Shown: positions 7,062 to 26,257 of the stretch, piece after piece
How the letters are laid out: the number at the start of each line of letters is the position of its first letter
Numbering within the stretch: the stretch's first letter is position 1
Assembly: GCA_026985515.1 (NCBI GenBank)
Contig: JALSQH010000193.1
Span: 1 to 30,202, forward strand
Direction: 5' to 3'
From: a bacterium
GTDB lineage: Bacteria; JALSQH01
Length of the DNA stretch: 30,202 bases
The notes under the pieces: generated by a model
Databases searched by the model: none
What the model saw: the letters and a program-made list of their open reading frames with translations, nothing else
What the model was told of the DNA's origin: nothing
Program-made: the position numbers and the translations under genes

Positions 7062-9559
<2,498 letters not shown>

Positions 9560-9568
9560 GGTTTTATT

Positions 9569-9952: not shown

Positions 9953-10087
9953 GACCACTTTTCGTAAAACTTTGTTTTAGTTTCTGATATACCCCCAATA
10001 TATTGTTGCTTGAGTTCGTCTAACCCACTAAATAAAGGAAAATTTTCCCCGTTTTATTCTCTTCCCGATTAATTTTTCAGTAAGGGC
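9953..10087. other. AT-rich intergenic stretch upstream of the mraZ promoter
   Basis: No open reading frame and no GC-rich hairpin followed by a T-run is seen, so there is no convincing intrinsic terminator after the PilZ gene. The only notable element is a perfect 12-base palindrome, GGAAAATTTTCC at 10037-10048, about 40 bases before the -35 box. It could be a regulator site or chance in AT-rich DNA. A weak AAAAC/GTTTT inverted repeat lies at 9966-9978. Confidence 0.6.
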
Positions 10088-10116
10088 TTGACATTTGAAA
10101 ATCACATTGCTAATAT
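10088..10116 (+). promoter_or_regulatory. Consensus sigma70-type promoter of the dcw cluster (Pmra)
   Basis: TTGACA at 10088-10093 and TAATAT at 10111-10116 are separated by the optimal 17 bases. The predicted start of transcription, near 10122-10124, falls inside the first MraZ-type repeat. It is the only strong promoter found between the PilZ gene and ftsZ, so it probably drives the 17-kb cluster. Confidence 0.85.
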
Positions 10117-10156
10117 GAAGTGGAGTAAAGTGGAGTGAAGTGGAGTAAAGTGGATG
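10117..10156 (+). promoter_or_regulatory. MraZ operator: four 10-bp direct repeats
   Basis: Four tandem units of exactly 10 bases follow the -10 box without a gap: GAAGTGGAGT, AAAGTGGAGT, GAAGTGGAGT, AAAGTGGATG. The shared core is AAGTGG at 10118, 10128, 10138 and 10148. MraZ proteins are known to bind short direct repeats at one-turn spacing in front of their own gene, and the mycoplasma box AAAGTG(G/T) is nearly identical. The unit of one helical turn places all four cores on the same DNA face. The last unit contains the mraZ ATG (10154), and the third supplies GGAG as a ribosome binding site. Binding would cover the transcription start and block RNA polymerase, so autorepression is inferred. 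Confidence 0.88.
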
Positions 10157-10669
10157 GATGAACAATTGAAATTAAATCAGGAACTTGAAGATAGCTGGAA
10201 AATGCAATTTATTGGACAGTACCATCAGACAATGGATAGTAAAGGCAGGATAGTTCTTCCATCCACTTTCAAGGAAATCCTGATCCACTACTATGGTGGT
10301 GAAGTTGGGATCAATACATCTTTTGAGGACCCGGATGGAAAACTCCTCATCGTTTTTCCTCTTCCTGTTCTTGCCAGGAGATTAAACGTAATAAGAGAGT
10401 TAATGTCCAAAAATGAAAATATGCGCTACCTCTTTGAACATTACTCGGGCTCTATTCGTGGGACCATTGATTCACAGGGCAGAATAGTGGTGCCACAGCA
10501 ATTGAGGAGTGGAAGATTGAATAAAAATATTGTTGTTCACGGGAGGCTTGACACAATCGTACTCTGGGATATGGAATACTTTGAAAACAAATTCAGACCT
10601 GAATCGGAGGAACTGGAGAATATCAAAGAAACTTTGAGAAATTCCGGGAATCTCGATTTACTTTTCTGA
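10154..10669 (+). CDS. mraZ: Transcriptional regulator MraZ
   Basis: This 171-residue DNA-binding protein has two MraZ/AbrB-like half-domains, each with the signature DSxGR (residues 28-32 and 106-110). MraZ forms ring-like oligomers that bind direct repeats and control the mra/dcw operon; the repeats are present directly upstream. Most MraZ proteins begin at the equivalent of MQFIGQY, which here is residue 17 (ATG 10202). The upstream ATG at 10154 is preferred because GGAG (10142-10145) lies 8 bases before it, whereas ATG 10202 has no well-spaced site. This gives an unusual polar N-terminal extension of 16 residues. The C-terminus is also slightly longer than the common ~145-residue form. 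The next gene follows after 15 bases. Confidence 0.96.
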   Translation: MDEQLKLNQELEDSWKMQFIGQYHQTMDSKGRIVLPSTFKEILIHYYGGEVGINTSFEDPDGKLLIVFPLPVLARRLNVIRELMSKNENMRYLFEHYSGSIRGTIDSQGRIVVPQQLRSGRLNKNIVVHGRLDTIVLWDMEYFENKFRPESEELENIKETLRNSGNLDLLF

Positions 10670-10684
10670 ATATAAGGGCGGGCA

Positions 10685-11581
10685 ATGTTTGGTGCAGAAA
10701 AACCATTAGTTTTGCACAGGCCGGTAATGAAGAGGGAAGTTGTGGAATTCCTTCTTGTAGATCGAGATGGTGTATATCTGGATCTCACTTTTGGACGTGG
10801 TGGGCATGCAGAGGCGATCCTGGAACAACTTTCAGAAAAAGGTTCAATATATGTGGTGGACTGGAATAGAGAAGCATTTGAGCATGCACTTCGTATGGCA
10901 GAAGTGGATAGCAGGGTTCATCCATTTCTTGGAAATTACGGTGACCTGGATTTTATGGAGAAAAATTTTAAAGGAAAAGAATTTAATGGAATTATTGCTG
11001 ATCTTGGACTCTCAATGGATCTGATAAAAATCAGTGGCAGAGGATTTTCATTTATGAAAGATGAGCCTCTTGATATGAGATATGGTGATGGAGAGTTGAC
11101 CGCTGAATATGTTATCAACAGTTATTCAAAAAGGGATCTTGCAAGAATATTCAAAGAGTATGGAGAGGAAAAAAAGGCTGAAGTTGTGGCGGAGGAGATA
11201 GTTAGGGAAAGAAGAAAGAAAAGGATCGAAACCACCCTTCATCTTGTTTCAATAATTGAGAGGCATTTGAAAAAACGGGGGAGGATTCATCCGGCTACCA
11301 GAATCTTTCAGGCATTGAGGATAGAGGTAAATGATGAACTTGGTAATCTGAGGAGGATGCTCAGTTTTATTCCAGAGGTGGTGAAGAAAGGAAGCAGACT
11401 TGCTGTTATAACCTATCATTCTCTTGAGGATAGAATCGTGAAGGAAAAATTCAGGGAGTGGGAGATGAATGGGATGGGTAAAAGAGTTGTGAAGAAGGTG
11501 ATTGTGCCATCTGAGGAAGAGAAGAGAAACAATCCTGCTTCCAGAAGTGCAAAAATGAGAGTTTTTGAATTTGGGAGGTAA
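10685..11581 (+). CDS. rsmH: 16S rRNA (cytosine1402-N4)-methyltransferase RsmH
   Basis: This 298-residue SAM-dependent methyltransferase (formerly MraW) acts on C1402 in the decoding centre of 16S rRNA. The SAM-binding motif is DLTFGRGGH (about residues 33-41), followed by the acidic residue in VVDWN where most homologues have a DxD-type sequence. Further family motifs are DLGLS, RGFSF with PLDMRY, HPATRIFQALRIEVNDEL and YHSLEDRIVK. The position after mraZ is the standard one. It uses the product of metK, encoded upstream, and releases the SAH that AhcY removes. The start at ATG 10685 follows a GGGCGGG purine-rich stretch. The gene ends 3 bases before ftsL. Confidence 0.97.
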   Translation: MFGAEKPLVLHRPVMKREVVEFLLVDRDGVYLDLTFGRGGHAEAILEQLSEKGSIYVVDWNREAFEHALRMAEVDSRVHPFLGNYGDLDFMEKNFKGKEFNGIIADLGLSMDLIKISGRGFSFMKDEPLDMRYGDGELTAEYVINSYSKRDLARIFKEYGEEKKAEVVAEEIVRERRKKRIETTLHLVSIIERHLKKRGRIHPATRIFQALRIEVNDELGNLRRMLSFIPEVVKKGSRLAVITYHSLEDRIVKEKFREWEMNGMGKRVVKKVIVPSEEEKRNNPASRSAKMRVFEFGR

Positions 11582-11584
11582 AAA

Positions 11585-11920
11585 ATGAGGGAAGGGACAT
11601 TTGTCAGTGAGATAGTTGTAGAAGATTACAGCAGAGAGATAAAGGATTATACCGTTACGCTCATATTACTCGTAATTCTGTTTCTGGTCACCCTTACTTC
11701 TGTGGTTTTTAAAAGCAGTGTTAAAAATGCGAAGCTGATCCTGCCAAAGTATCAGGCACAGCTTGTATCTCTTGAAAATGAAAATGAATTTTTGAAGCAC
11801 AGATACAACCTGCTTGTTTCAATTCCCAATCTTAAGAAATGGGCAGTGGAACTTAATATGAGGCCTGTGGGGATAGATGAATATGTAGTCCTTGATGAAA
11901 ATGGCAGAGATGATGAGTAA
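11585..11920 (+). CDS. ftsL: Cell division protein FtsL
   Basis: A 111-residue bitopic membrane protein with a short cytoplasmic N-terminus, one transmembrane helix at about residues 23-42, and a periplasmic region of coiled-coil type (about 45-85, with LENENEFLKHRYNLL). It ends in the family-typical pattern LKKWAVELNMRP followed by YVVLDE. FtsL has very low sequence identity between phyla, so the call rests on size, topology, the coiled coil and position between rsmH and ftsI. It acts with FtsQ and FtsB to activate FtsW-FtsI. GGGAGG at 11573-11578 supports ATG 11585. The 3' end overlaps the start region of ftsI. Confidence 0.85.
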   Translation: MREGTFVSEIVVEDYSREIKDYTVTLILLVILFLVTLTSVVFKSSVKNAKLILPKYQAQLVSLENENEFLKHRYNLLVSIPNLKKWAVELNMRPVGIDEYVVLDENGRDDE

Positions 11921-13643
11921 GTATTTAAAAAAGTTGCTCTTTTACATTTATGCTGCATTGTTTCTCGCAATATGGGTCAGGCTTTACCTTGTTCAGGTGA
12001 GGTATCATGATCTCTATTCACACTACACAGAAAAGCAGTACAGGAGAGTAATAAAGGTTGAACCATATAGAGGTAAGATACTTACCAGGGATGGAACAGT
12101 TCTGGCTGAGAGTTTGCAGGTTTATTCATTGTACGCTGATCCAAAACAATACTGGAGCTTTTACAGGGACAATTCTCCTCAGGAACTGGCAAGGGTTGTT
12201 GGGGTGAAAAATATACATAAGATCCTGAGCAGAAGAGATGTAAGGTTTGTATGGATAAAAAGAAGATTGACGGACAGAGAAGTTCAAGAGGTAAAACAGC
12301 TGTCAAAAAAAGTTATCTCTGAGGGTAAAAAGAGAGGGACTCTGATTCCCTGGTTCAGGCTTCAGAAGGAGTTTATAAGGTTTTATCCTGAAGGTGAGCT
12401 GGCGGGACAGGTGGTGGGAATAACGGGATTTTCCACAGGAAACAGGTATGATGGCAGGGGTATCGCAGGCATAGAAGCCACATACAATGAATTTTTGAAG
12501 GGAAAAGAGGAAACTATAGTTGTCACAAGAGATGGAAGCAGATTGAGAAGAATAATGACTTCCAGGATCTTTCTTCCCGAAAGATTGAATGGTCTTGATG
12601 TTTACACCACAATTGATGCTTCACTGCAGGATGTGGTAGAAGAGTATCTTTCTGAGGGTGTGAAGAGAGCAGGTGGAAAGAGGGGCATGGCTGTTGTGAT
12701 GGACCCTCATACTGGAAGAATCCTGGCTATGGCCAGTTACCCCTTTTTTAATCCCAACAAAAGGGATAGGAGGAACTTGAAGTATATGAAAAATCTCGTA
12801 ATTTCCTATGGATTTGAGCCAGGGTCTGTAATGAAGCCGTTTATAGTTGCTGGAGCTCTTGATGACGGGAAATTGAGTTTGCATGAGAGATTTTATGCTG
12901 AAGAGGGAAGGTATCTTTTCGGGGGGATCGTGATCCATGATCACGAGAAGTATGGATGGTTAAGTGTACCCGAAATAATTAAGTATTCAAGCAACATAGG
13001 TATGACAAAAATTGGTGATAAATTAGGTCCCGAAGAGGTTTACAGGATACTCAGGAAATTTGGATTTGGAATGAAGACAGGTATAGATCTCTGGGGAGAA
13101 AATCCCGGATATCTGAGACACTGGAAAAACTGGTACCCTGCTGATCTTGCAAATATTTCTTTTGGTCAGGGTTTAAAGGTGACCCTTATTCAGCTTGTCA
13201 CAGCAATGTCAGTTATAGCAAATGGAGGCCTTCTTGTAAGACCATATGTGGTGGATAGGGTGGTTGATTCCAGTGGTAACATTGTCTATAAAAATGATCC
13301 TGAAATAAAAGGACGTGTTATAAGTGAAGAAACAGCAAGAATCATGAGAAGAGTTCTGCATCTTGTAACTGAAAAAGGAGGAACTGGTACTGAGGCGGCA
13401 CTTCCAGAGGTCTCTGTGGCAGGTAAAACTGGCACTGCACAGAAGTGGGTGGGTGAATACACCAGAGAAGTTTACACTGCCTCTTTTGTCGGTTTTCTTC
13501 CTTCAAATGATCCGGAGTGGGTTTTAGGAATAGTGGTTGATGAACCTGAGAAAGAAATTTATGGTGGAACCGCTGCAGCTCCAATTTTCAGAGAAATCGC
13601 AAGAGAACTGATTATTAGAAGCGGTAAATTAACCCTGAGATAA
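11913..13643 (+). CDS. ftsI: Peptidoglycan transpeptidase FtsI (PBP3-type, class B)
   Basis: This class B penicillin-binding protein crosslinks septal peptidoglycan. It has one N-terminal transmembrane helix (about residues 8-25), a dimerisation/pedestal domain beginning at EPYRGKILTRDG, and a transpeptidase domain with all three motifs. These are SVMK with the nucleophile S305 and K308, SSN at 359-361, and KTGT at 505-508. No PASTA domains follow, so it is the Gram-negative-like form. The start is uncertain: TTG 11892 and ATG 11895, 11901, 11910 and 11913 are all in frame and none has a strong ribosome binding site. ATG 11913, which overlaps ftsL by 8 bases, is taken because it leaves the usual short cytoplasmic tail. 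Translation is probably coupled to ftsL. Confidence 0.96.
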   Translation: MSKYLKKLLFYIYAALFLAIWVRLYLVQVRYHDLYSHYTEKQYRRVIKVEPYRGKILTRDGTVLAESLQVYSLYADPKQYWSFYRDNSPQELARVVGVKNIHKILSRRDVRFVWIKRRLTDREVQEVKQLSKKVISEGKKRGTLIPWFRLQKEFIRFYPEGELAGQVVGITGFSTGNRYDGRGIAGIEATYNEFLKGKEETIVVTRDGSRLRRIMTSRIFLPERLNGLDVYTTIDASLQDVVEEYLSEGVKRAGGKRGMAVVMDPHTGRILAMASYPFFNPNKRDRRNLKYMKNLVISYGFEPGSVMKPFIVAGALDDGKLSLHERFYAEEGRYLFGGIVIHDHEKYGWLSVPEIIKYSSNIGMTKIGDKLGPEEVYRILRKFGFGMKTGIDLWGENPGYLRHWKNWYPADLANISFGQGLKVTLIQLVTAMSVIANGGLLVRPYVVDRVVDSSGNIVYKNDPEIKGRVISEETARIMRRVLHLVTEKGGTGTEAALPEVSVAGKTGTAQKWVGEYTREVYTASFVGFLPSNDPEWVLGIVVDEPEKEIYGGTAAAPIFREIARELIIRSGKLTLR

Positions 13644-13645
13644 AA

Positions 13646-15145
13646 ATGAGTATCAAATCTGTAGGGGCAGAAAAAATAATTGAACTTGTTAAACCAGAAG
13701 GAAAGAAGGGAAATATACCTTCAGGAAAAGTTAATGTAAAACTGGTCACAACAGATTCACGCAGGGTGGTTACTGGTTCTGTTTTCATTGCAGTTAAAGG
13801 TGAAGAGAGGGATGGTCACGATTATATAAAAGATGCGGTGGATAGAGGAGCTTTTCTTATTGTGGGAGAAAGGGAGGATGTAGAAATTGAAGGTGCAGGC
13901 TATCTGATCGTAAAGGACTCACGAAAGGCAGCAGTGAGATTGTTAAAGTGGTTTTATGATGCACCGGATGAAAAGTTGAGGGTAATCGGTGTCACCGGGA
14001 CTAATGGAAAGACAACAACCACCTACTTGCTGGAGAGTATTTTAAGAGAGAAAGGTGAGTTACCGGGAGTTATCGGCACCGTGAACTGGCGGTATGGAAA
14101 CAGATCCATTGAAGCTTCCAATACCACTCCTTCCTTTGAAACTATCATTTCACTGATGGCTGAAATGGTAAAGGAGGGGGTGAAAAGTTTAGTTATGGAG
14201 GTCAGTTCACATTCCCTTGCTCAGAGGAGGATTGATGGCATAAATTTTGATGCTGGAGTTTTTACCAATTTATCCCGTGACCACCTGGATTATCATGGAG
14301 ATATGGAGAATTACTATTTAGCGAAAAGGAGATTTTTCTGTGAATTGCTTCCGGCTTCCGGGAAAAAGTCGTTTGGTGTAGTAAATATAGATGATCCATG
14401 GGGAAGGAGAATCGTGGATGAATGCAGTGATGTGAATCTTTTTACTTATGGCTTTGAGAAGGGTGATGCACATGTTGAGGAGGTCATTTTTTCCCCGGCT
14501 GGAATGGAGTTTACAGTAAGGATTTTTGATGATAAATGCAGTATGATTTCTGATCTCATTGGACGGTACAATCTCTACAATATTCTTGCTGCATCTCTTA
14601 CTGCACATCTTGCAGGTACTGCATGTGAGGAGATCAAAATGGGAGTTGAAAAAGTAAAAAGAGTTCCCGGAAGAGTTGAAAAGTTGTACTACAGCGGAAC
14701 TCCTGTTGTAATAATAGACTATGCCCATACCCCCGATGCTGTTAAAAATGTACTTTCTGCACTGAGGGATATCGCAGGTGGAAGAAGGATTATAACCGTT
14801 GTAGGAGCAGGAGGAGACAGGGATAAGGAAAAGAGAAAACCTATGGGTATGGAAGCAGGAAGATATTCCGATTTTGTTATTGTAACTTCTGATAATCCCA
14901 GAACGGAAGATCCTCTGAAAATCATAGAGATGGTTGCAGAAGGAGTAAAGGAGAGCGGAACCCCATTTAAAAAAATTGAAAACAGGGAAGAGGCCATCAG
15001 GGAAGCGATCATGATGGCATCAGAAAAGGATATAGTGGCAATACTTGGTAAAGGACACGAGGAATATCAGATAATTGGCTCAAAAAAAATTCCCTTCAGC
15101 GACAGGGAGGTGGCAGAAAAATTCCTTATGGAAAAGAGAAGATGA
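13646..15145 (+). CDS. murE: UDP-MurNAc-L-Ala-D-Glu:meso-diaminopimelate ligase MurE
   Basis: This 499-residue cytoplasmic Mur ligase adds the third amino acid of the stem peptide. The N-terminal substrate domain has TTDSRRV, the ATP-binding loop GTNGKTT is at 118-124, and the central domain has EVSSHSL and TNLSRDHLDYHG. The C-terminal domain contains DNPR at 416-419. In characterised MurE enzymes, DNPR contacts meso-diaminopimelate; lysine-adding enzymes usually differ at this motif. This predicts meso-DAP peptidoglycan. The gene starts 2 bases after ftsI with a poor ribosome binding site, which suggests coupling to ftsI translation. It overlaps murF as ATGA. Confidence 0.97.
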   Translation: MSIKSVGAEKIIELVKPEGKKGNIPSGKVNVKLVTTDSRRVVTGSVFIAVKGEERDGHDYIKDAVDRGAFLIVGEREDVEIEGAGYLIVKDSRKAAVRLLKWFYDAPDEKLRVIGVTGTNGKTTTTYLLESILREKGELPGVIGTVNWRYGNRSIEASNTTPSFETIISLMAEMVKEGVKSLVMEVSSHSLAQRRIDGINFDAGVFTNLSRDHLDYHGDMENYYLAKRRFFCELLPASGKKSFGVVNIDDPWGRRIVDECSDVNLFTYGFEKGDAHVEEVIFSPAGMEFTVRIFDDKCSMISDLIGRYNLYNILAASLTAHLAGTACEEIKMGVEKVKRVPGRVEKLYYSGTPVVIIDYAHTPDAVKNVLSALRDIAGGRRIITVVGAGGDRDKEKRKPMGMEAGRYSDFVIVTSDNPRTEDPLKIIEMVAEGVKESGTPFKKIENREEAIREAIMMASEKDIVAILGKGHEEYQIIGSKKIPFSDREVAEKFLMEKRR

Positions 15146-16503
15146 AGGTGGGGTTGAAACTTGAGGAAATTCTGGAAGCAACGGGTGGGAAGTTGATCAG
15201 GAGAGGTGAAGCAGAAAGCTGGTTAAGTTTCTGCAGAGATTCCAGGAAAGTAAAGAAAGGTGACTTTTTTATTCCGTTGAAAGGTGAAAGGTTTGATGGT
15301 CACGATTTTATTGAGGATGCGGTGATGAGAGGAGCCACAGGTTCCCTGTGGGGTAGAGAGGATTCTCCTAATTTGGGCATCACCCTTATAGGAGTGAAAG
15401 ATACACTGGAAGCTCTCGGCAAGATGGGTGACAGGATCAGGAGAAAATGGGGAGGAGAGATTGTTGGGATTACCGGGAGTGCAGGAAAAACAACCACCAA
15501 AGAAATAATCTGGGCAGGATTGAGTGCTTTTGGAAATGTTCATAAAACACCCGGGAACTACAACAATCTTGTAGGTGTTCCAATTTCTCTGCTGGCTCTT
15601 TCAAAGGAGGACAGATTTTCCTGTGTGGAAATGGGTATGAATTCTCCGGGAGAAATTGCGAAACTCGCAGAGATAGCTGCTCCTGACTGGAGTATTATTA
15701 CCTCAATTGGTCCCGCCCACATAGGTGCGTTTAAGGATCTCTCTGGCATTGAAAAGGAGAAAGGCTCCATTCTTGATTTCACAAAGAAGGGAGCGGTTTT
15801 CCCTGCGGGACATCCTCTGCTCACTTCAAAAGCGACGAAATCAGGCATAAGGTTCATAACCACAGGTCCTGCTGGAGAACTTGAGCTGGTTAGGTGGCAG
15901 AAAGAGAAATTAATAATTCGCTACATTGACACCAGACTTGAATTTGATATACAGTTTTCAACTCCTGTGGAAGCAGAAGATTTTACTCATGCTCTTGGAA
16001 TTGCCATACTGATGCAACTTGATCTTGACAGGTTTGTGGATGGTGTGAGAGAAAATTATACACCACCAGAGAGAAGATCCAGAATTTATAAGGGGAAATT
16101 TACAGTTATTGATGATTCCTACAATGCCAATCCTTTATCTACCAAAAAAGCACTGGAATTACTGGGAAGAATCAGTGGCAAAAGAAAGATATTCATCTTC
16201 GGTGATATGCTGGAACTTGGGGAACAGGAGGAAAAACTCCACAGAGAGATTGGGGAATATGTGGCAGAGAGTGGAATTGACACCTTCGTTGTTATAGGAA
16301 GGCGGGCTTACTGGAGTGGTGAAGAGGCTGAAAAGAGGGGGGTAAACACCTTTTTTGTTGAAAATTTCATGGAACTGGAACAATTGATGGATATTATTCT
16401 CGGCGAAAATGATGTTGTACTTGTTAAAGCGTCAAGGGCTATGAGACTTGAAAGGATAGTCGATTACTTACTGAAAAAGATAGAGGTGAAGAATGCTGTA
16501 TAA
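15142..16503 (+). CDS. murF: UDP-MurNAc-tripeptide:D-Ala-D-Ala ligase MurF
   Basis: This 453-residue Mur ligase completes the UDP-MurNAc-pentapeptide by adding D-Ala-D-Ala, which the Ddl encoded downstream supplies. It has an N-terminal domain with CRDSRKV and GERFDGHDF, and the ATP loop GSAGKTTTK at 112-120. GNYNNLVGVP follows, then EMGMNSPGEIA and DDSYNANP in the central and C-terminal domains, all typical of MurF rather than other Mur ligases. Its ATG overlaps the murE stop codon as ATGA, and its own end overlaps mraY by 11 bases. Confidence 0.97.
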   Translation: MKVGLKLEEILEATGGKLIRRGEAESWLSFCRDSRKVKKGDFFIPLKGERFDGHDFIEDAVMRGATGSLWGREDSPNLGITLIGVKDTLEALGKMGDRIRRKWGGEIVGITGSAGKTTTKEIIWAGLSAFGNVHKTPGNYNNLVGVPISLLALSKEDRFSCVEMGMNSPGEIAKLAEIAAPDWSIITSIGPAHIGAFKDLSGIEKEKGSILDFTKKGAVFPAGHPLLTSKATKSGIRFITTGPAGELELVRWQKEKLIIRYIDTRLEFDIQFSTPVEAEDFTHALGIAILMQLDLDRFVDGVRENYTPPERRSRIYKGKFTVIDDSYNANPLSTKKALELLGRISGKRKIFIFGDMLELGEQEEKLHREIGEYVAESGIDTFVVIGRRAYWSGEEAEKRGVNTFFVENFMELEQLMDIILGENDVVLVKASRAMRLERIVDYLLKKIEVKNAV

Positions 16504-17563
16504 GTTAGCACTCATATTGAAGGAGCATTTTTCTCCTTTAAATGTTTTCAGATACATTACATTCAGGACAATTGTGGCTGTTCTTTTTTCAATGGTGGTG
16601 GTTTTCGTTCTCTCTCCATGGTTCATAGAAAAATTGAGAGCATTGAATATAGGCGATAAAGCAAGAAAAGAGTATTTACCTGAACATGAGAAAAAAGAGG
16701 GAACACCCACAATGGGTGGGATTCTGCTGATCCTTTCAATTATCATCACCTCTCTGCTTCTGAATAATCTTGCTAATTCCTATGTCTGGTATGTCCTCTC
16801 AGTTACATTTTTATTTTCCGTTATAGGTCTTGTTGATGATCTCCTCAAGTTGAGAAAGAAAGAAGGTTTGAAGGGGAGTGTAAAATTTATTCTTGAATCA
16901 GTTATTGCCGTAGGTCTCGCAATTATCCTTGCAAGGGATCCATCCTTCAGCACAAAAATGGTTGTACCATTTTTCAAAAATGTTAATCCTGATCTCGGTG
17001 GTTTTTACATTTTGATTATCTGGTTTGTTATTGTTGGAACTGCCAATGCCGTTAATCTTACAGATGGTCTTGATGGACTTGCCATTGGGCCAGTACTGAT
17101 AACTGCTGCCACATATCTTGTTTTTTCATATGTTATGGGTCACGAAATAATAGCCCGCTACCTTGGATTTCCCTTCGTACCAAAAGCTGGCGAACTTGCA
17201 ATTATTTCTGGGGCTGTCATAGGTTCAGGGATTGCGTTCCTCTGGTATAACACATATCCTGCACAGGTATTTATGGGTGATGTTGGTTCTCTGGGGCTCG
17301 GTGGACTGATTGGAACGATGGCCATTCTGTCCAAGCAGGAAATATTGCTTGGAGTTGTTGGGGGAGTGTTTGTCATTGAGGCACTCAGCGTGATCATTCA
17401 GGTGACTTATTATAAGTTAACGGGTAGGAGAATCTTCCTTATGGCTCCAATTCATCATCATTTTGAAAAAAAAGGATGGGATGAGCCAAAGGTAACCGTT
17501 CGTTTCTGGATAATAAGTTTTATTCTGGCACTTGTTGCATTGAGTTCACTCAAGTTGAGGTGA
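16493..17563 (+). CDS. mraY: Phospho-MurNAc-pentapeptide transferase MraY
   Basis: This 356-residue polytopic enzyme moves phospho-MurNAc-pentapeptide from UMP to undecaprenyl phosphate to form lipid I. About ten transmembrane helices are seen. Key motifs are TPTMGG (71-76), the acidic pair DD at 115-116, NAVNLTDGLDGLA (185-197), GDVGSLGLG, and the histidine-rich loop APIHHHFEKKGW. All catalytic aspartates expected for the family are present. GAGGTG shortly upstream supports ATG 16493, which overlaps murF by 11 bases. It competes for undecaprenyl phosphate with the sugar-phosphate transferase encoded at 5622-7001. Confidence 0.98.
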   Translation: MLYKLALILKEHFSPLNVFRYITFRTIVAVLFSMVVVFVLSPWFIEKLRALNIGDKARKEYLPEHEKKEGTPTMGGILLILSIIITSLLLNNLANSYVWYVLSVTFLFSVIGLVDDLLKLRKKEGLKGSVKFILESVIAVGLAIILARDPSFSTKMVVPFFKNVNPDLGGFYILIIWFVIVGTANAVNLTDGLDGLAIGPVLITAATYLVFSYVMGHEIIARYLGFPFVPKAGELAIISGAVIGSGIAFLWYNTYPAQVFMGDVGSLGLGGLIGTMAILSKQEILLGVVGGVFVIEALSVIIQVTYYKLTGRRIFLMAPIHHHFEKKGWDEPKVTVRFWIISFILALVALSSLKLR

Positions 17564-17567
17564 GAAG

Positions 17568-18893
17568 ATGATAGAACTACTTGGTTCAAAAGTTGCCGTT
17601 CTCGGTACAGGGGTAACGGGTGAGGAAGTAACAAAGTTTTTACTCAACAGAGGTTCTTTTGTAACCGTTTATGATGAGAATGAAATCTCTGATGATAAAA
17701 AGGGTATTTTTGACTCCCTTGGGGTTGAGTACTATGAGAAGGTTAACTTTGATCAACTGACATTTACAGATTTCGATCTCGTTGTTAAAAGCCCCGGGAT
17801 ACCGTGGAAAACTGGTTTGAAAAGATCAGTGGATAGGGGAATTCCGGTGGTTGATGAGGTTGAGCTTGCCTCCTGGTTCATATCTTTTCCCATGATCGGG
17901 GTAACAGGCACAAATGGTAAAAGCACCGTTGTTGCTCTTGTAAGCGAAATTTTGAAGAGGGGTGGATATGAGGTTTTCACCGGTGGCAATTATGGAGAAC
18001 CTCTTGTCAAGGCTGTTGATATGCCTTTTGATGTTGCTGTGGTGGAGCTGAGCAGTTTTCAGATTGAGGGTTTGATAGATGCAGAATTTCTCCTTTCAAC
18101 CATTTTAAATGTTACACCTGATCACCTGGACAGATATACAGGTTTTGAAGAGTATCTCCAGACGAAGTTGAAACTGGTAACTCTTACTGAACCATTTGGT
18201 GAGGTATGGATAAACAGAGACGATGAACATCTTTCACTGGTAGACTGGAAAAGATATGACCAGAATGTGAATTTCTTTTCTGTTGATGTTCCATCGGAAG
18301 CATATATTGAGAAGGGAAAATTAATTTTCAGGGATGAAGAGGTTTTCCCATTCCCGAAAAAAAAGATACCTCCCGAAAATATCCTTGCCTCAGCAGCTCT
18401 TGCCCTGACATGGGGAGTTGAAAAGGAAGTTGTGGAGGATGCCATTGCCAGTTTCAGAGGCCTTCCCCATAGAATGGAGGAGTTTTTTGAAAGTGGGGGA
18501 ACTATTTTTGTTGATGATTCCAAATCAACCAATCCAGCCTCCCTTTTAAAGGCTCTTTCTGTGTATCCACCAGAGGATACTCTTCTCTTAATTGGGGGAA
18601 GAAGCAAAAAAGAGGGCTACGAGATTTTGAGAGAAAAGATTCAGAGATGTAAATATGTAGTTTTCTTTGGGGAGGATGGCGAATTTCTCTACCGTATGCT
18701 GGAACCTCCAGCTTATTCAATCTTCCCACGGCTGGCTGAAGCACTTGAAGACTTGGAAAAGATTGTTTCTGAAGTCAAACCCCGGTATGTGTTGCTGTCG
18801 CCGGGGTGTGCCAGTTTTGATGAATTCGAAAATTACAGAGAAAGAGGGAAGTTCTTTAAACAGAGGATAAGGGAAATATATGGGAGAGTGTAA
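17568..18893 (+). CDS. murD: UDP-MurNAc-L-Ala:D-glutamate ligase MurD
   Basis: This 441-residue cytoplasmic Mur ligase adds D-glutamate, the second stem residue. The N-terminal Rossmann domain begins VAVLGTGVTG and contains KSPGIP. The ATP loop GTNGKST is at 114-120. VELSSFQ, NVTPDHLDRY, GLPHRME, DDSKSTNP and the C-terminal LSPGCASFDEFENYRERG are the usual MurD landmarks, with no missing key residue. It starts 4 bases after mraY with AGGTGA in the upstream region. It overlaps ftsW by 14 bases. Confidence 0.97.
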   Translation: MIELLGSKVAVLGTGVTGEEVTKFLLNRGSFVTVYDENEISDDKKGIFDSLGVEYYEKVNFDQLTFTDFDLVVKSPGIPWKTGLKRSVDRGIPVVDEVELASWFISFPMIGVTGTNGKSTVVALVSEILKRGGYEVFTGGNYGEPLVKAVDMPFDVAVVELSSFQIEGLIDAEFLLSTILNVTPDHLDRYTGFEEYLQTKLKLVTLTEPFGEVWINRDDEHLSLVDWKRYDQNVNFFSVDVPSEAYIEKGKLIFRDEEVFPFPKKKIPPENILASAALALTWGVEKEVVEDAIASFRGLPHRMEEFFESGGTIFVDDSKSTNPASLLKALSVYPPEDTLLLIGGRSKKEGYEILREKIQRCKYVVFFGEDGEFLYRMLEPPAYSIFPRLAEALEDLEKIVSEVKPRYVLLSPGCASFDEFENYRERGKFFKQRIREIYGRV

Positions 18894-19998
18894 AAAATTT
18901 GATGGCATAAAACTGATGATCCTGGTCGTGATTATTTTCCTGTTTGGCCTGCTTTTCCTTTACAGTGCCAGTGTGTTCTACAACTATCGTGGAAGCATGG
19001 ATAACTATTTCACAATTATGTGGTCAACCTATGCAATAAAGCAGTTTTTATTTGGTATCGTGGGCATCTCTCTCATGATTTTGATGTACCGGATTGGGGT
19101 CGAACCTCTTTACAAATATGCGTATCATTTGATTCTGGCAGGATTGTTTCTCATGATCCTGGTTTTTGTACCCCATGTTGGTTTTTCAGCAGGTGGCGCA
19201 ACGAGGTGGATAAGATTGGGTCCCGTTAGTTTTCAACCCTCGGAATTTTTGAAACTCGCCCTCATAACCTACCTTGCAAGGTCTCTCTCAGGTAAAAAGA
19301 AGGTTATTAAAGATTTCTGGATGGGATTTTTCCCCTACATGGTTATTCTCGGTGTGGTGGCAGTTCTTCTACTGCTTCAGGAAGACATAGGAGATTTTGT
19401 CATCATAAGTTATCTGACATTTCTGCTTCTCCTCATAAGTGGTGCCGAGATACTTTACATTGCTCTGATGAGTTTACTGGGTGTTTCCATTGTGACAACT
19501 GCAATTCTATTTACACACAGAATTGACAGGGTAAAGGCATGGCTCAATCCGTGGGATTACGCCAGCAATTATGGATATCAGATTATTCAGTCTCTTGTTG
19601 CCCTCTCCAATGGGGGGGTAACAGGAAGATCCCCCGGTGCCGGGTTGCAGCAGCTCTCTTTCCTTCCTGAGGCTCACACAGATTATATTTTTGCAATAAT
19701 CGGGGAAGAAGGGGGATTCATTGTTACCACCCTTTTTATAGTGGCCTTTGTTTACCTTCTATACCTCAGTTTCAAAATTGCTCTTGCTCAGAAAAACAGT
19801 TTTAACATGATTCTTGCAATCGGCATAGCATCTCTGCTGGGAATAGAGATCATAATAAATCTTGCCGTTGTGACGAATATCTTCCCCACCAAGGGATTAC
19901 CACTTCCATTTGTCAGTTATGGAGGTTCAAATCTGCTGGTTTCTTTTACAATGATTGGAATTCTTGCTTCATTGGGGAGGAAATGTGAAGAGATGTAG
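18880..19998 (+). CDS. ftsW: Septal peptidoglycan glycosyltransferase FtsW (SEDS)
   Basis: This 372-residue SEDS-family polymerase has about ten transmembrane helices. It polymerises lipid II at the septum together with FtsI, which is encoded in the same cluster. Characteristic stretches are GGATRWIRLGP (105-115) with FQPSEFLKL just after, and AHTDYIFAIIGEEGG, with D268 at the position of the catalytic aspartate. The C-terminal PFVSYGGSNLL is also typical. The cluster position between murD and murG favours FtsW over RodA. AAGGG lies about 8 bases before ATG 18880, giving a 14-base overlap with murD. The 3' end overlaps murG by 14 bases. Confidence 0.96.
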   Translation: MGECKKFDGIKLMILVVIIFLFGLLFLYSASVFYNYRGSMDNYFTIMWSTYAIKQFLFGIVGISLMILMYRIGVEPLYKYAYHLILAGLFLMILVFVPHVGFSAGGATRWIRLGPVSFQPSEFLKLALITYLARSLSGKKKVIKDFWMGFFPYMVILGVVAVLLLLQEDIGDFVIISYLTFLLLLISGAEILYIALMSLLGVSIVTTAILFTHRIDRVKAWLNPWDYASNYGYQIIQSLVALSNGGVTGRSPGAGLQQLSFLPEAHTDYIFAIIGEEGGFIVTTLFIVAFVYLLYLSFKIALAQKNSFNMILAIGIASLLGIEIIINLAVVTNIFPTKGLPLPFVSYGGSNLLVSFTMIGILASLGRKCEEM

Positions 19999-21073
19999 CA
20001 TTATTTTTGCTGGAGGTAAAACGGGCGGGCATCTTTTCCCGGGAATTGCGGTGGCCAGAAAATTGAAGGATTACTATGGCGAATCACTCAACATCATTTT
20101 TGTAGGATTGAGGAATGGCCTTGAGGAGCGTGCCGTACCTCGTGAGGGCTGGAAGGTAGAGTTCATACCGATGACAACACCAAGGACGGGCGGAGTGATT
20201 GGTATTTTCAGATTTATTTTCTACTCTTTTCCTGTGAGTTTTCTGAAGAGTTTTCTGATCATCATAAAATACCGTCCCTCTGTTATTGTGGGACTTGGCG
20301 GTTACACTGCCTTTCCGGTGGCTCTTGCAGGCTGGTTACTTTTTGTTCCTGTGGTAATCATGGAACAGAACACATATATGGGAATCACCAACAGAGTTCT
20401 GTCAATTATTGCATCTGAAGTGTATCTCAGTTTTGAATCAAAAGAAAAAGATAGCTGGAAGTACATATACACGGGGAATCCTGTCAGAGATTTTGTCCTG
20501 AAGAGAAGGGAAGATGAGAGCAGGTTTGTAATCGGGATTCTTGGTGGAAGTCAGGGAGCAGTGGGTCTGAACAGGCTTGTCATGAAAATGTTGCCCTATT
20601 TGACCGATATAAAGGACAGGATCCATTTTATTCACCAGACTGGTAAGCACCTCCACGAGGAAGTTAAGGAGACATACAGAAGATATGGGTTCAGTGCAGA
20701 TACTTATGAATTCATAGATGATATGGGTTGGTTTTATGGACAGGTTGATCTCACGATATCCAGAGCAGGTGCTACCACAATTGCAGAACTGATAAGGGTT
20801 GGTAAGCCTTCAATTTTTGTTCCCTTTCCACATGCCGCCGATGATCATCAGCGCAAAAATGCTGAATACATAGCAGATGCCGGTGGAGGAATAGTTTTTG
20901 ATGAGAATGGAGATCCTGAAAAACTTGCAAAAATAGTAAAAGAACTTTTTTCTGACAGAAAAAAATTAGAAGAAATGTCCACTTCCCTGAAAAAACTTTA
21001 TAGGGGTGATGCTTCAGGGAAGATAGCAGAAAGACTAAAAAAATTTCTGGAGAGAACATGTTTGGAAGGGTAA
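19985..21073 (+). CDS. murG: Lipid II-forming GlcNAc transferase MurG
   Basis: This membrane-associated GT-B enzyme of 362 residues adds GlcNAc to lipid I to form lipid II. The first glycine loop reads GGKTGGHLFPG (residues 10-20), with Lys at a position that is often Gly. Then come GLGGYTAFP, EQNTYMGITNR, TGNPVR, GGSQGA, and the UDP-GlcNAc site DLTISRAGATTIAEL followed by PFPHAADDHQRKNA. GTG 19985 is taken as the start because GGGGAGG (19974-19980) lies directly upstream and the protein then begins at the expected place. The longer frame from TTG 19955 would add ten residues read in the ftsW C-terminal coding region and has no such support. It overlaps murC by 16 bases. Confidence 0.96.
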   Translation: MKRCSIIFAGGKTGGHLFPGIAVARKLKDYYGESLNIIFVGLRNGLEERAVPREGWKVEFIPMTTPRTGGVIGIFRFIFYSFPVSFLKSFLIIIKYRPSVIVGLGGYTAFPVALAGWLLFVPVVIMEQNTYMGITNRVLSIIASEVYLSFESKEKDSWKYIYTGNPVRDFVLKRREDESRFVIGILGGSQGAVGLNRLVMKMLPYLTDIKDRIHFIHQTGKHLHEEVKETYRRYGFSADTYEFIDDMGWFYGQVDLTISRAGATTIAELIRVGKPSIFVPFPHAADDHQRKNAEYIADAGGGIVFDENGDPEKLAKIVKELFSDRKKLEEMSTSLKKLYRGDASGKIAERLKKFLERTCLEG

Positions 21074-22431
21074 AGAAGTTACACTTTGTGGGAATTGGTG
21101 GAATTGGAATGAGCGGAATTGCAGAATTGCTGTTGAATATGGGTTTTGAAATTACAGGGTCTGATCTTTCCGAAAATGAACAGACCAGGCGACTGGAAAA
21201 ATTGGGTGCCAGGATCTTCTATGGTCACAGACCTGAAAATGTAGGTGATGCCCAGGTGGTGGTTATTTCTTCTGCGATAAAACCTGATAATGTCGAAGTG
21301 TTAAGAGCAAGAGAGTTGAAAATACCTGTCATTAAAAGAGCCGAAATGCTAAGTGAGTTGATGAGGATGAAATATGGGATTGCTGTGGCTGGAAGCCATG
21401 GTAAAACCACCACCACTTCAATGATTGCAAGGGTGATGATTGATGCGGGATTTGATCCCACAGTGATTGTGGGAGGAAAACTCTATGATATTGGAAGCAA
21501 TGCAAGACTGGGTAAAGGTGAATATCTGATTGCCGAAGCAGATGAGAGTGACGGATCGTTCCTGATGCTGATGTCCTACATAGCAGTGATAACTAACATA
21601 GATGAAGAGCATCTTGATTATTACCAGAGTTATCAGAACATTCTCAGAGCATTTACAGATTTTGGAAATAGAGTACCCTTCTACGGCCTGGACATAGTTT
21701 GTGGAGATGATAGGGGAGTGAAAGAGATTCTCCCTTTTCTTAAGAAAAGAGTTTTAACATACGGATTTTCAGGAGAAAATGATATAACCGCAGAAATAAT
21801 GGAGAGTGACGGTGGTTATATTTACAGAGTGAAATACCGCGGAAACGACCTTGGAATATTCAGATTAAAAATACCGGGGAAACACAATGTACTGAATTCC
21901 CTTGCAGCCATTGGAGTGGGTATGGAGCTTGAAATAGATGTGGACAGAATAAGGGAATCACTCAGTAATTTCAGTGGAGTGAAGAGACGTCTGGAAGTTG
22001 TTTACTCAGATGAGGGGATAACAATTATTGATGACTATGGTCATCATCCAACTGAAATATCAAATACTATTCAGGCTGTGAAGGAGATGTTTCCCGGAAG
22101 GAGATTGATTGTTGCGTTTCAACCCCACAGATACACCAGGACCCGGGCATTGATGAACAGATTTGGGGAAAGTTTAAAAGGTGCAGACCTTCTTATTCTT
22201 ACAGAGATTTACCCGGCTGGTGAAAATCCCATTGAGGGAGTTTCAGGGGAAGCTCTCTACTGGAATGTAAAGGATGTCGTTGGGGATAAGGTTACCTTTG
22301 CTCCCACCCTTGTGGATGTTGTGGAAGCTATTGAGGAGGTTTTTAAGGAAGGTGATGTGATATTGACCCTTGGGGCGGGAAATATTTACAGGGTTGCCGA
22401 GGAGTTGAAAGAATGGAGATTAAAGAGGTGA
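21058..22431 (+). CDS. murC: UDP-MurNAc:L-alanine ligase MurC
   Basis: This 457-residue Mur ligase adds L-alanine to UDP-MurNAc. The N-terminal UDP-binding loop is GIGGIGMSGIA (about 12-22), the ATP loop is GSHGKTTTT at 112-120, and EADESDGSF, TNIDEEHLDYY, DDYGHHPTEI and FQPHRYTRT follow. These identify MurC rather than Mpl or another Mur ligase; the position between murG and murB agrees. GGAGAG is found just upstream of ATG 21058. The end overlaps murB by 19 bases. Confidence 0.97.
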   Translation: MFGRVKKLHFVGIGGIGMSGIAELLLNMGFEITGSDLSENEQTRRLEKLGARIFYGHRPENVGDAQVVVISSAIKPDNVEVLRARELKIPVIKRAEMLSELMRMKYGIAVAGSHGKTTTTSMIARVMIDAGFDPTVIVGGKLYDIGSNARLGKGEYLIAEADESDGSFLMLMSYIAVITNIDEEHLDYYQSYQNILRAFTDFGNRVPFYGLDIVCGDDRGVKEILPFLKKRVLTYGFSGENDITAEIMESDGGYIYRVKYRGNDLGIFRLKIPGKHNVLNSLAAIGVGMELEIDVDRIRESLSNFSGVKRRLEVVYSDEGITIIDDYGHHPTEISNTIQAVKEMFPGRRLIVAFQPHRYTRTRALMNRFGESLKGADLLILTEIYPAGENPIEGVSGEALYWNVKDVVGDKVTFAPTLVDVVEAIEEVFKEGDVILTLGAGNIYRVAEELKEWRLKR

Positions 22432-23330
22432 TCAGGTACCTCAAAGAGAGGAATTACGAGTATCTTGAGAATTTTCCCATGAGCCAGTTTACGTCTATCA
22501 GAGTGGGAGGAAGGGCTGATCTTATTTTTCTGCCGAAGAATGAAGAAGAATTGATCAATTTCATAAAGGAGTTCAGGGACAAAAATCTGAAAATTACAGT
22601 GCTTGGAGAGGGGACAAATGTTATTGTCAGGGATGGGGGAATCAGAGGAGTTGTTATATCTCTTAAAAATCTCAGGGGGATCAGATTTGTCAGGGAGGGG
22701 AATTTTTACCTTGTTCATGTTAAGGCTGGTGAGCCTCTTCCTTCACTGGTGAAAAAAGGAATGACTTACGGTCTTTCGGGAATTGAGAAACTTGCAGGAA
22801 TTCCGGGAAGCGTTGGAGGAGCCATAAGTGGTAACGCGGGTCTTCACAGAAAAGGCATAGGAGAATTTGTGGAAGAGGTGGAGCTGGTGACATTCTATGG
22901 AAGAAGAAGAAAATTTGGAAAGGATGAGATTGAGTTCACTTACAGAAAAACGAAATTTCCAGTTTCAGGCATAATAGTGGAGGCAACCCTTAAGTTTCCC
23001 ATAGGTGATTGTGGAAAAATAAAGGAAATGGTTCTTGAGAATATAAAGAAAAAGAGTGATTCCCAGCCCTTAAACCTACCATCCGCAGGATCTGTGTTCA
23101 AAAATCCAGCAGGCAGAAAAGCATGGAAGTTAATAAGTGATGCAGGATTGCGGGGATTGAGGCTTGGTGGGGCAAGGATCTCTGAAAAACACGCAAATTT
23201 CATAGTTAATGAAGGAGGAGCTACAGCAAGAGACATTGAAACGATTATTGATCTTGTGAAAAAGAGGGTAAAGAAAGTTTATGGGGTTGAAATGGAAGAG
23301 GAAGTGAAAATCATAGGAGAGAAAAAATGA
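22413..23330 (+). CDS. murB: UDP-N-acetylenolpyruvoylglucosamine reductase MurB
   Basis: This 305-residue FAD/NADPH enzyme reduces the enolpyruvyl group to form UDP-MurNAc. The FAD domain has SIRVGGRAD, GEGTNVIV and the GIPGSVGGAISGNAG loop (129-143). The C-terminal substrate domain has PSAGSVFKNP, with the proton-donor serine S227, then GGARISEKHANFIVN and a glutamate near the end (EEEVKIIG). The size and the AGSVFKNP context place it in the shorter type II group, as in Bacillus and Staphylococcus, not the E. coli type I. GAGGAG at 22400-22405 supports ATG 22413. It overlaps ddl as ATGA. Confidence 0.97.
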   Translation: MEIKEVIRYLKERNYEYLENFPMSQFTSIRVGGRADLIFLPKNEEELINFIKEFRDKNLKITVLGEGTNVIVRDGGIRGVVISLKNLRGIRFVREGNFYLVHVKAGEPLPSLVKKGMTYGLSGIEKLAGIPGSVGGAISGNAGLHRKGIGEFVEEVELVTFYGRRRKFGKDEIEFTYRKTKFPVSGIIVEATLKFPIGDCGKIKEMVLENIKKKSDSQPLNLPSAGSVFKNPAGRKAWKLISDAGLRGLRLGGARISEKHANFIVNEGGATARDIETIIDLVKKRVKKVYGVEMEEEVKIIGEKK

Positions 23331-24232
23331 GGAGTAAAAAAATTGGAGTCATAATGGGTGGTGTCTCTTCAGAGAGAGAAGTGTCAATGTTAACTGGAAA
23401 AGCTGTTTCGCAGGCTTTACAGTATCTGGGTTACAGAGTTGTTGACATAGATGCTGGATGGGACCTTGTGGAAGTACTGCTTAGAGAAAAAATCGATGTT
23501 GCTTTCAACGCTCTTCATGGAACACTTGGTGAAGATGGTTATATTCAGGGTTTACTTGAATGGATGAGGATTCCATACACCGGACCTGATCTCCTGTACT
23601 GTGCCCTTTCTATGGATAAGGAACTTTCAAGAATTATTTTTGAAAGGGAGAAAATACCTGTACCACCATGGCAGAAGTATGTTAGGGGAAAAAGTGAGTT
23701 AGAATTTGATTTTCCATTTGTTGTAAAACCAGTGGCAGAGGGATCCAGTGTGGGTGTGGAAATAATAGAATCTGAGGAGCAATTTGAAAATTACCTTGAG
23801 AGATCAAGAGGAGATCTTCTCATTGAAAAATATCTGCGTGGCAGGGAGATAACTGTTGGAATCCTTGAGGGAAAACCTATTGGAACTGTGGAAATAAGGC
23901 CAAAAATTGACAGATTTTATTCCTATAAGGCGAAGTATACTCCGGGTGGCACAGAGTACCTTGTCCCTGCTCCTCTTTCCAGAAAAGAAGAGGAGGAAGT
24001 TTTTGAAATAGCTCTGAGAGCTCACAGAGCATTGAAAGGTGGTGACGAAGAAGCGGTCAGGGTTGACACAATTTATGTTGAAGGTGAGGGATTTTATGTG
24101 CTTGAAATAAACGCTCTTCCAGGAATGACATCCACAAGTTTGTTACCAAAAATTGCAAAACATGCAGGGATAGATTTTCCAGAGCTTGTGGAAAGAATTC
24201 TTTTGAAGGCAAGGTTACGGGGAAAATGGTGA
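23327..24232 (+). CDS. ddl: D-alanine--D-alanine ligase
   Basis: This 301-residue ATP-grasp enzyme makes D-Ala-D-Ala for MurF. Motifs in order are GGVSSEREVS at the N-terminus, FNALHGTLGEDG, VVKPVAEGSSVG, the flexible loop FYSYKAKYTPGGT, RVDTIYV, and LEINALPGMTSTSLLP with the Mg-binding residues. The KY pair in the loop corresponds to the dipeptide-forming type rather than the D-Ala-D-Lac (VanA-like) type. The segment LKGGDEEAVRVD differs from the usual cysteine-containing sequence, which appears to be a harmless variation. The length is that of DdlB. ATG 23327 overlaps the murB stop as ATGA, and the end overlaps ftsQ by 7 bases. Confidence 0.97.
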   Translation: MRSKKIGVIMGGVSSEREVSMLTGKAVSQALQYLGYRVVDIDAGWDLVEVLLREKIDVAFNALHGTLGEDGYIQGLLEWMRIPYTGPDLLYCALSMDKELSRIIFEREKIPVPPWQKYVRGKSELEFDFPFVVKPVAEGSSVGVEIIESEEQFENYLERSRGDLLIEKYLRGREITVGILEGKPIGTVEIRPKIDRFYSYKAKYTPGGTEYLVPAPLSRKEEEEVFEIALRAHRALKGGDEEAVRVDTIYVEGEGFYVLEINALPGMTSTSLLPKIAKHAGIDFPELVERILLKARLRGKW

Positions 24233-25020
24233 GGATAAAGGAAGATACAAAATTTAAGATCCGGTTCAGAATAAGACGTATAAAAGTGGAAATGAAAAAG
24301 CGTTCCCTTTACATTTTAATTTTTATTTTCATCTTTGCAATTTCAGCGGGAATCTATGGTGTTTTGAAAGCCTTTTTCAATAGTGACTTCTTTAATGTAA
24401 AGTATGTGCAGATAAGGGGAATGCAGAATTTAACTCCCGAAGCTGTCATAAGGCGAATTAACCTTTTCCAGCCCGTGAACATTTTTGAAATAGATACTCA
24501 GAAGCTTATCAAAAGGTTGAGTTCAATTGGGTGGGTGGAGAGTGTCTCAATTACTTCAAAATTGCCCGATACTATCATAGTGAATCTCAGAGAAAGGGTT
24601 CCTTACACTTATCTCCAGGTTGGCAAGAGATATTTTCTGATAGACAGGAATGGTGTGGTGATAACAGGCGTTAACAGGAGGAAGTTTTCTCTGCCACTTC
24701 TGAGAATAACAGATCTGTCATGCCTGAAAGATGGGAAAATTAAGCAGCCTCTTTGGAGTAACTATGTTTCGCTGGTTGAGGCCATATCTTCCTGTGGGCT
24801 TACAGGGAAAATAACCGGGATAGAGACTGACGGCGGTGGATTTAATATCTATATCAATTCTTTGAAAATAGATGCAGGCACAGGCGATTTTAAAATTAAA
24901 TTGTGTCGTCTTAAGAAGGCTCTTTCCTATCTTGAGAAAAGGGGAATTTCTGTGGAGGAGCTTCAGTTTCTTGATAAAGATGATGTCGTTGCAAAATACA
25001 CAAAAGTTGATGGGAGGTAG
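24226..25020 (+). CDS. ftsQ: Cell division protein FtsQ/DivIB (POTRA domain)
   Basis: A 264-residue bitopic divisome protein with a strongly basic cytoplasmic tail (residues 1-26), one transmembrane helix (about 27-48), and a POTRA domain (about 55-125). The POTRA domain carries VKYVQIRGMQNLTPEAV, IGWVESVSITSKLPDTIIVNLRE in overlapping shorter blocks, and then the FtsQ beta domain starting FLIDRNGVV. FtsQ links FtsL/FtsB to the early divisome. The order ddl-ftsQ-ftsA-ftsZ is the classical one. ATG 24226 has a GGGG stretch close upstream; a second in-frame ATG at 24292 would remove most of the basic tail. Sequence identity to any one family member is low, but topology and position are clear. 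Confidence 0.93.
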   Translation: MVRIKEDTKFKIRFRIRRIKVEMKKRSLYILIFIFIFAISAGIYGVLKAFFNSDFFNVKYVQIRGMQNLTPEAVIRRINLFQPVNIFEIDTQKLIKRLSSIGWVESVSITSKLPDTIIVNLRERVPYTYLQVGKRYFLIDRNGVVITGVNRRKFSLPLLRITDLSCLKDGKIKQPLWSNYVSLVEAISSCGLTGKITGIETDGGGFNIYINSLKIDAGTGDFKIKLCRLKKALSYLEKRGISVEELQFLDKDDVVAKYTKVDGR

Positions 25021-25023
25021 AAA

Positions 25024-26235
25024 ATGAAGAAGGGGGTAAGAAGATATGTGGGGATGGATGTGGGGAGCAGTAAGACAATCTGCATGGTGGGGGAGGAAAG
25101 TGAGAAGGGTCTGAAAATTATTGGTAAGGGGGAAGTAAAAACAAACGGCTTCAGAGATGGTGTTGTTGTGGATTTTGCCAGTGCAGTTAAGACCATAAAA
25201 GAAGCGGTAAGATCTGCAAGGGTTTATACTGAAGAAGAAATTGAGAATGTGGCTGTTACACTTGGTGGGACCCATGTTGAGCAGATCAGCGTTACGGTGG
25301 AAATTCCCATAAGCAAAAAATCTATCACAAAGGATGATATTCACAGATTGATTGAGTCTGCAAGAGAAGAGGCAAAAAAGAGAATAAAAGATCAGGAAAA
25401 AATTATTATTCATTCCACCCCTTACCGTTTTCTGGTAAATGGCGATACTGAGGTAGTAAATCCTGAGGAAATGGATGCAGATAGGTTGACAGCAGAGGTT
25501 AATGTTTACGTTGGTGACAGAAACAAGATTGAAAACTTTAAGAAAGCTTTTTACGAAGCAGGTGTTAATATTACCGCTGTCTTTATTCCTCATTACGCAA
25601 TGGGAATGGGGGTTTTTAACAGTGAATTCAGGGAGCAGGTGATAGGGGTTATTGATTTAGGTCACTCCCTTCTCAAAGGGGTAGTTTTCAGAAACGGGAA
25701 AATAGAGAAGATCTTTACATTTCTGGCTGGCGTTCAATACATCACAAAGGATATTGGAGCTGTTTTCAGGTTGAAACAGCAGGATGCAGAAAGGCTGAAA
25801 AAACATGGTGTGGCTTTACCATCTAAGATAACCGACCCTGATAGCACAGTGGAGGCGAGGGCTTTAAATGGAAGCATAAGAAGTTTTCCAGCAGTGATTC
25901 TCTCTGAGATTATCAGTGCCAGGCAGGAGGAGATACTGAGGCTTGTATGGGATAATATGAAAAGCAGTCCATCTTTTTCGTCAATAAAGCATGTTTATCT
26001 GATTGGTGGGGGGGCAAAGCTGAAATATGTGAAGGAACTTGCCGAAGAAATCTTCTCAGTTGATGTTACAATTGGCAGGCCCACAGGTGTTACTTCAATT
26101 GATAATGGGGTGCTGGGACCCGAGTATGTACAGGTCGTGGGGGTAATTAAAGCCCTGTACAGCAGGGGTTCAGGGCCTGAGAGAAAAAGTTTTTTTGGAA
26201 AAGTGGGAATTGCACTTAAAAAGATGTTTGCTTAA
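25024..26235 (+). CDS. ftsA: Cell division actin-like protein FtsA
   Basis: This 403-residue actin-fold protein tethers FtsZ to the membrane. The phosphate-1 loop is VGMDVGSSKT (about 9-18), the FtsA-specific 1C (SHS2) region lies about 85-165, and the adenosine motif LIGGGAKL is near the C-terminal third. The final KSFFGKVGIALKKMFA forms the amphipathic membrane helix. The phosphate-2 region reads DLGHSLLKG (211-219), lacking the usual Gly-Thr-Thr/Asp pattern; from memory, Thermotoga FtsA is also non-standard there. GGGAGG just before ATG 25024 is a strong ribosome binding site. The gene is followed by ftsZ after 22 bases. Confidence 0.96.
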   Translation: MKKGVRRYVGMDVGSSKTICMVGEESEKGLKIIGKGEVKTNGFRDGVVVDFASAVKTIKEAVRSARVYTEEEIENVAVTLGGTHVEQISVTVEIPISKKSITKDDIHRLIESAREEAKKRIKDQEKIIIHSTPYRFLVNGDTEVVNPEEMDADRLTAEVNVYVGDRNKIENFKKAFYEAGVNITAVFIPHYAMGMGVFNSEFREQVIGVIDLGHSLLKGVVFRNGKIEKIFTFLAGVQYITKDIGAVFRLKQQDAERLKKHGVALPSKITDPDSTVEARALNGSIRSFPAVILSEIISARQEEILRLVWDNMKSSPSFSSIKHVYLIGGGAKLKYVKELAEEIFSVDVTIGRPTGVTSIDNGVLGPEYVQVVGVIKALYSRGSGPERKSFFGKVGIALKKMFA

Positions 26236-26243
26236 CCAATCCA

Positions 26244-26251
26244 AAAGGAGG
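26244..26251 (+). promoter_or_regulatory. Strong ribosome binding site of ftsZ
   Basis: AAAGGAGG lies 6 bases before ATG 26258. It is the best Shine-Dalgarno match in the window and sits in the short ftsA-ftsZ gap. It fixes the ftsZ start and fits the need for far more FtsZ than FtsA. Confidence 0.85.
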
Positions 26252-26257
26252 TTTGCA

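Follow-up and report, generated by a model that had tools for sequence, protein, structure and literature searches.

The four 10-bp direct repeats that lie between the -10 hexamer and the start codon of mraZ in this bacterial contig most probably constitute a standard autoregulatory MraZ operator, on whose boxes a ring of MraZ would repress both its own gene and the 17-kb operon behind it. From the sequence and its comparison with other genomes we put the probability of this reading at roughly 0.93. The array shows the features by which MraZ boxes are recognized, namely two or three AAAGTGK-type direct repeats at the least with 3-nt spacers, a location at the mraZ/dcw promoter and conservation in relatives, and its identity is well supported because the consensus is a known one, the repeats are linked to mraZ, and they are conserved in a relative as well as across phyla. 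It is an ordinary, well-placed example of an already known type of operator.

Architecture of the mraZ leader

Within the window, by which we mean the complete stretch of 30,202 nucleotides that was analysed, positions 10117-10156 read GAAGTGGAGT AAAGTGGAGT GAAGTGGAGT AAAGTGGATG (Table 1). Four repeats with the core AAGTGG abut the -10 hexamer without a gap and the last one ends with the three bases of the mraZ ATG, so that the description given in an earlier note on this DNA proved exact in coordinates and letters. Units 1 and 3 depart from the consensus AAAGTGKN3 in the first base only. Four AAGTGG cores at 10-bp spacing match once in the window, and 100 dinucleotide-preserving shuffles of it, searched with up to three mismatches allowed, yielded no four-core array of this kind. 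A four-unit RTGG array occurs a single time in the 2.36-Mb genome, at mraZ, and likewise a single time, again at mraZ, in a relative from the same family, and the reversed control pattern is absent from both genomes. The search for further MraZ targets in the genome thus revealed no second four-unit array, and near-matches to a single pair of units were fewer (24) than those to the reversed control pattern (39).

The promoter consists of a -35 hexamer TTGACA (10088-10093), a 17-nt spacer ending in TTGC, and a -10 hexamer TAATAT (10111-10116) of the extended type, TG-C-TAATAT. Transcription is expected to start about 7 nt past the -10 hexamer, near 10122-10124 within unit 1, and it is on this predicted, unmapped position that the earlier note's description of the entire leader as operator hinges.

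As judged by Pfam, its DxxxR motifs and the predicted fold, the protein encoded downstream is MraZ. The match to PF02381 has an E value of 2.1e-13 and 50.5 bits, against a curated cut-off of 23, with one of the two half-domains reported. Each AbrB-like half contains a DxxxR motif (DSKGR 28-32 and DSQGR 106-110); D28, K30, R32, D106 and R110 are invariant in the alignment, and the aspartate and arginine of the motifs are invariant in 36 and in 35 sequences. The monomer model, predicted from an alignment that omitted the E. coli row (row 36), has a pLDDT of 92.8 and superimposes on the entries 1n0f, 1n0e, 9qlg, 9r4j and 9sz7, MraZ structures from M. pneumoniae and M. genitalium, with Z scores of 17.0-18.0 and rmsd values of 2.4-3.1 over 135-139 residues; the next unrelated fold follows at Z 5.3. 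Residues 2-16 are predicted to be helical, and this N-terminal helix, about 15 residues long, is absent from most homologues. An N-terminal extension of 16-20 residues is present in MraZ of both family members (window 10154-10201; 1441-1497 in the relative's locus, L042), and an extension, MKEDYKKQNFSDEFLGT, also occurs in the MraZ of genome G133 (locus L132).

According to open reading frames and Pfam matches, mraZ is the first of 16 genes that run on one strand to ftsZ (10154-27439, 17.3 kb), and the 17-kb division operon of the earlier note was therefore correctly recognized. The genes at 10685-27439 are presumably controlled from the mraZ promoter. Note that the small reading frame in the ftsL position (11585-11920) gave no Pfam match at an E value of 0.001. 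A radical SAM gene (27449-29011) lies some 10 bp 3' of ftsZ on the same strand and may belong to the operon.

Table 1. Features of the mraZ promoter region and the cluster downstream, in window coordinates
Feature	Position	Strand	Basis or remark
Sigma-70-type promoter	10088..10116	+	consensus scan 10/12
MraZ box 1 (predicted)	10117..10126	+	GAAGTGGAGT; transcription start expected inside
MraZ box 2 (predicted)	10127..10136	+	AAAGTGGAGT; AAAGTGKN3 matched exactly
MraZ box 3 (predicted)	10137..10146	+	GAAGTGGAGT; likely Shine-Dalgarno GGAG within
MraZ box 4 (predicted)	10147..10156	+	AAAGTGGATG; AAAGTGKN3 matched exactly; mraZ start codon 10154-10156 within
mraZ	10154..10669	+	171 aa; PF02381; two half-domains and N-terminal extension
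rsmH, ftsL-position small ORF, ftsI, murE, murF, mraY, murD, ftsW	10685..27439, first part	+	ORFs, Pfam
murG, murC, murB, ddl, ftsQ, ftsA, ftsZ	10685..27439, remaining part	+	ORFs, Pfam

Conservation in a relative and across phyla

Within the phylum, the comparison comprises two genomes, that of the window and the one relative from the same family, whose contig (C57) equals JALTID010000057.1 in its first 1758 bases. The earlier note had proposed to search for the repeats in front of mraZ in related genomes and named, as evidence against its reading, relatives with mraZ and the promoter that lack them; the relative is no such case, as it retains promoter and array alike. Its leader reads TTGACATTTG...CATTGCTAATAT, followed at 10-bp spacing by the cores GTGG, ATGG, GTGG and GTGG and a weaker GTGA. 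The promoter (L042 1381-1409) has the same hexamers, spacing and extended -10 as that of the window. Identity between the two sequences amounts to 84% in the promoter (10086-10116) and 80% in the array, and to 47% in the upstream intergenic DNA and 40% in the first codons; the array occupies the same place, and its spacers have diverged while the cores were kept. The two MraZ proteins are 48% identical over the part available. In the relative's assembly contigs break within mraZ (at the end of L042 and the start of L039/L043), with an overlap that differs by one residue. A gene for S-adenosylhomocysteine hydrolase and one for a PilZ-domain protein are located directly upstream of the cluster (window 8228-9952; L042 2-1228), and this neighbourhood is conserved between both family members.

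For a broader survey, mraZ leaders were drawn from 77 named rsmH loci and from the loci of the family search, giving 70 scorable leaders of 150 bp each. Two or more GTGG cores at a spacing of exactly 10 bp occurred in 56 of them, from many phyla, versus 14 of 6328 control windows, and at least three units in 19 leaders versus none of the 6328 controls. No other spacing in the range of 5-19 bp gave such pairs in more than 2 of the 70 leaders; the harmonic spacing of 20 did so in 30. The consensus of 169 units is AAA-GTGG-NNN. The MraZ site is not universal, because 14 of the 70 leaders lack a strict two-unit array within the 150 bp. Of 386 genomes, 19 contain the strict four-unit pattern, and 10 of those 19, the present one among them, have an array that directly precedes mraZ.

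Operator function, translation start and alternative readings

In the mechanism that we propose, MraZ would form a ring of AbrB-like subunits in which adjacent subunits each occupy one AAAGTGG box, the boxes being spaced by one helical turn. On four boxes such a ring would lie over the site of transcription initiation and roughly 30 bp at the beginning of the transcribed region, and therefore should hinder RNA polymerase and repress mraZ together with the 17-kb division and cell-wall operon. We infer binding, ring stoichiometry and repression at these boxes, taking the repressing rather than activating role over from other species. A ring contacting four boxes, as the earlier note had predicted, would agree with the solved complex of M. 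genitalium MraZ on a 4-box promoter (PDB 9sz7), and the tight autorepression predicted along with it appears plausible.

Because the boxes extend into the translation start, unit 3 would supply the Shine-Dalgarno sequence and unit 4 the start codon. The GGAG of unit 3 (10142-10145) is situated 8 nt 5' of ATG 10154 and is likely the best Shine-Dalgarno candidate for mraZ. As a search for 16S in this assembly found none, a generic anti-Shine-Dalgarno sequence was assumed, with which the duplex energy is -5.9 kcal/mol for ATG 10154 versus -3.3 kcal/mol for ATG 10202. The latter codon would give the usual MraZ N-terminus (MQFIGQY), but is disfavoured as a start because its Shine-Dalgarno sequence is weaker and because the relative has no ATG, GTG or TTG at or near that place. 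The only starts available to the relative before the domain are GTG 1441 and GTG 1444, both in unit 4 and with no other in-frame ATG, GTG or TTG, and translation would thus begin inside the operator there as well. With these starts, MraZ of both family members would gain its short N-terminal helix.

The same features could suggest that the repeats work mainly in RNA, as a purine-rich ribosome-binding leader with multiple GGAG motifs instead of as protein-binding DNA. The position of the unit 3 GGAG, its pairing, the best available with the generic anti-Shine-Dalgarno sequence, and a purine-rich leader without special folding (z 0.70, with no structured leader RNA seen) are in line with this. 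Across phyla, however, the GTGG cores keep an exact 10-bp spacing regardless of the distance to the start codon, as expected of a DNA site read once per helical turn, and the same motif is bound by MraZ in other species (PMC7761207, PMC5282649), so that we consider a primary role in translation very unlikely.

Somewhat less probable still is control of mraZ by a G-quadruplex, an idea put forward for S. aureus, where the relevant passages of PMC11796246 report that a motif able to form a G4 lies downstream of the mraZ promoter, with similar ones in other bacteria. The present array does contain four GG tracts, but tracts of two at 8-nt intervals should at best form a weak two-tetrad structure, and it is not the length of the G-run that is conserved but the GTGG core and the 10-bp interval, both of which are explained by the known MraZ box. 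The G-rich S. aureus stretch itself is probably an MraZ box array; those passages make no mention of MraZ boxes. More generally, G-rich motifs downstream of mraZ promoters that have been called G-quadruplexes may be MraZ boxes.

Chance, or a recent functionless tandem duplication of a 20-mer, to which the two perfect 20-bp copies found by Tandem Repeats Finder might point, can practically be dismissed because the comparative data contradict it, the relative's array having kept its cores among diverged spacers at the same place, with 80% identity against 40-47% in the flanks, and arrays recurring before mraZ across phyla. The 20-bp super-period reported earlier does hold locally, as the alternation of G and A is real and, in Tandem Repeats Finder, a period of 20 scores 100% and one of 10 scores 92%. 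It does not hold in general: in 37 mraZ arrays of at least three units the spacers were no more alike at a lag of 20 (identity 0.456) than at a lag of 10 (0.451; Wilcoxon p = 0.99), and the super-period is a local accident.

With the MraZ operator as the preferred reading, one further property of the units deserves mention. Units 1-3 of the window (10120-10148) read RTG-NNN-stop (GTGGAGTAA, GTGGAGTGA, GTGGAGTAA), as do the units before the start in the relative (L042 1411-1439; GTGGAGTAA, ATGGTGTAA, GTGGAGTAG), and the pattern RTG NNN TRR is thus found in 6 of 6 pre-start units of the two family members versus 15 of 89 in other mraZ leaders. Since shared ancestry and unit duplication leave few independent events, we regard this as a curiosity and not as a finding. 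That a single 40-bp element might unite the operator, a ribosome-binding site in unit 3, the start codon in unit 4 and several minimal reading frames in succession is a doubtful proposition. If it were true, the start-codon-stop units could halt stray initiation at the GTG cores, and the N-terminal helix of this MraZ would have arisen when its start codon moved into the operator.

Comparison with known MraZ operators

With this array the MraZ-box rule also covers a bacterial lineage that has been poorly sampled, and the survey provides a small cross-phylum table of box number and of position relative to the -10 hexamer and the start codon; by itself the array opens no long-standing question. 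In 39 arrays with a promoter-like site scoring at least 8/12 close upstream, the gap between the -10 hexamer and the first core ranged from overlap to 13 nt, most commonly 8 nt, and is 3 nt here and 1 nt in the relative and in two further loci (L106 and L132). The start codon follows the last core at distances of 0 to about 90 nt across leaders. Here the ATG lies 4 nt after the start of that core, in L055 and L073, both from Bacilli MAGs, 5 nt, and in L114 6 nt; four units at or close to the -10 hexamer are also seen in L127 (G175) and L132 (G133), where the distance from the last core to the ATG is 12 nt and 9 nt, respectively. These five loci, with two to four units, belong to other phyla. 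The overlap with transcription start and start codon had been singled out as the notable part of the arrangement, an assessment that is not sustained, as a published B. cenocepacia operator also lies over the transcription start and arrays in unrelated lineages touch the -10 hexamer, hold the start codon, or both.

In B. cenocepacia, four 7-nt repeats with 3-nt spacers are bound by MraZ (PMC7761207), and this operator, PmraBc, resembles the present one in that the four repeats follow the -10 hexamer and span the transcription start. The leader of E. coli K-12 mraZ (L120) likewise has GTGGG at 10-bp spacing just past the -10 hexamer, but with three strict GTGG units and an ATG that lies outside the array, 24 nt beyond the point where the last unit begins. 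In Mollicutes, the binding site of M. gallisepticum MraZ is given as (AAAGTGKN3)3 in PMC5282649, with reference to Fisunov 2016, and in M. genitalium the sole copy of the site is at the mraZ promoter, where loss of mraZ raises mraW, MG_223 and ftsZ RNA about 4-8 fold (PMC8475190). Core, 10-bp period, location at the mraZ promoter and a single copy per genome are common to the Mollicutes site (PMC5282649, PMC8475190; PDB 9r4j, 9sz7) and the present array, whereas units 1 and 3 here begin with G and not with A, and a full 16-gene cluster stands downstream in place of four genes.
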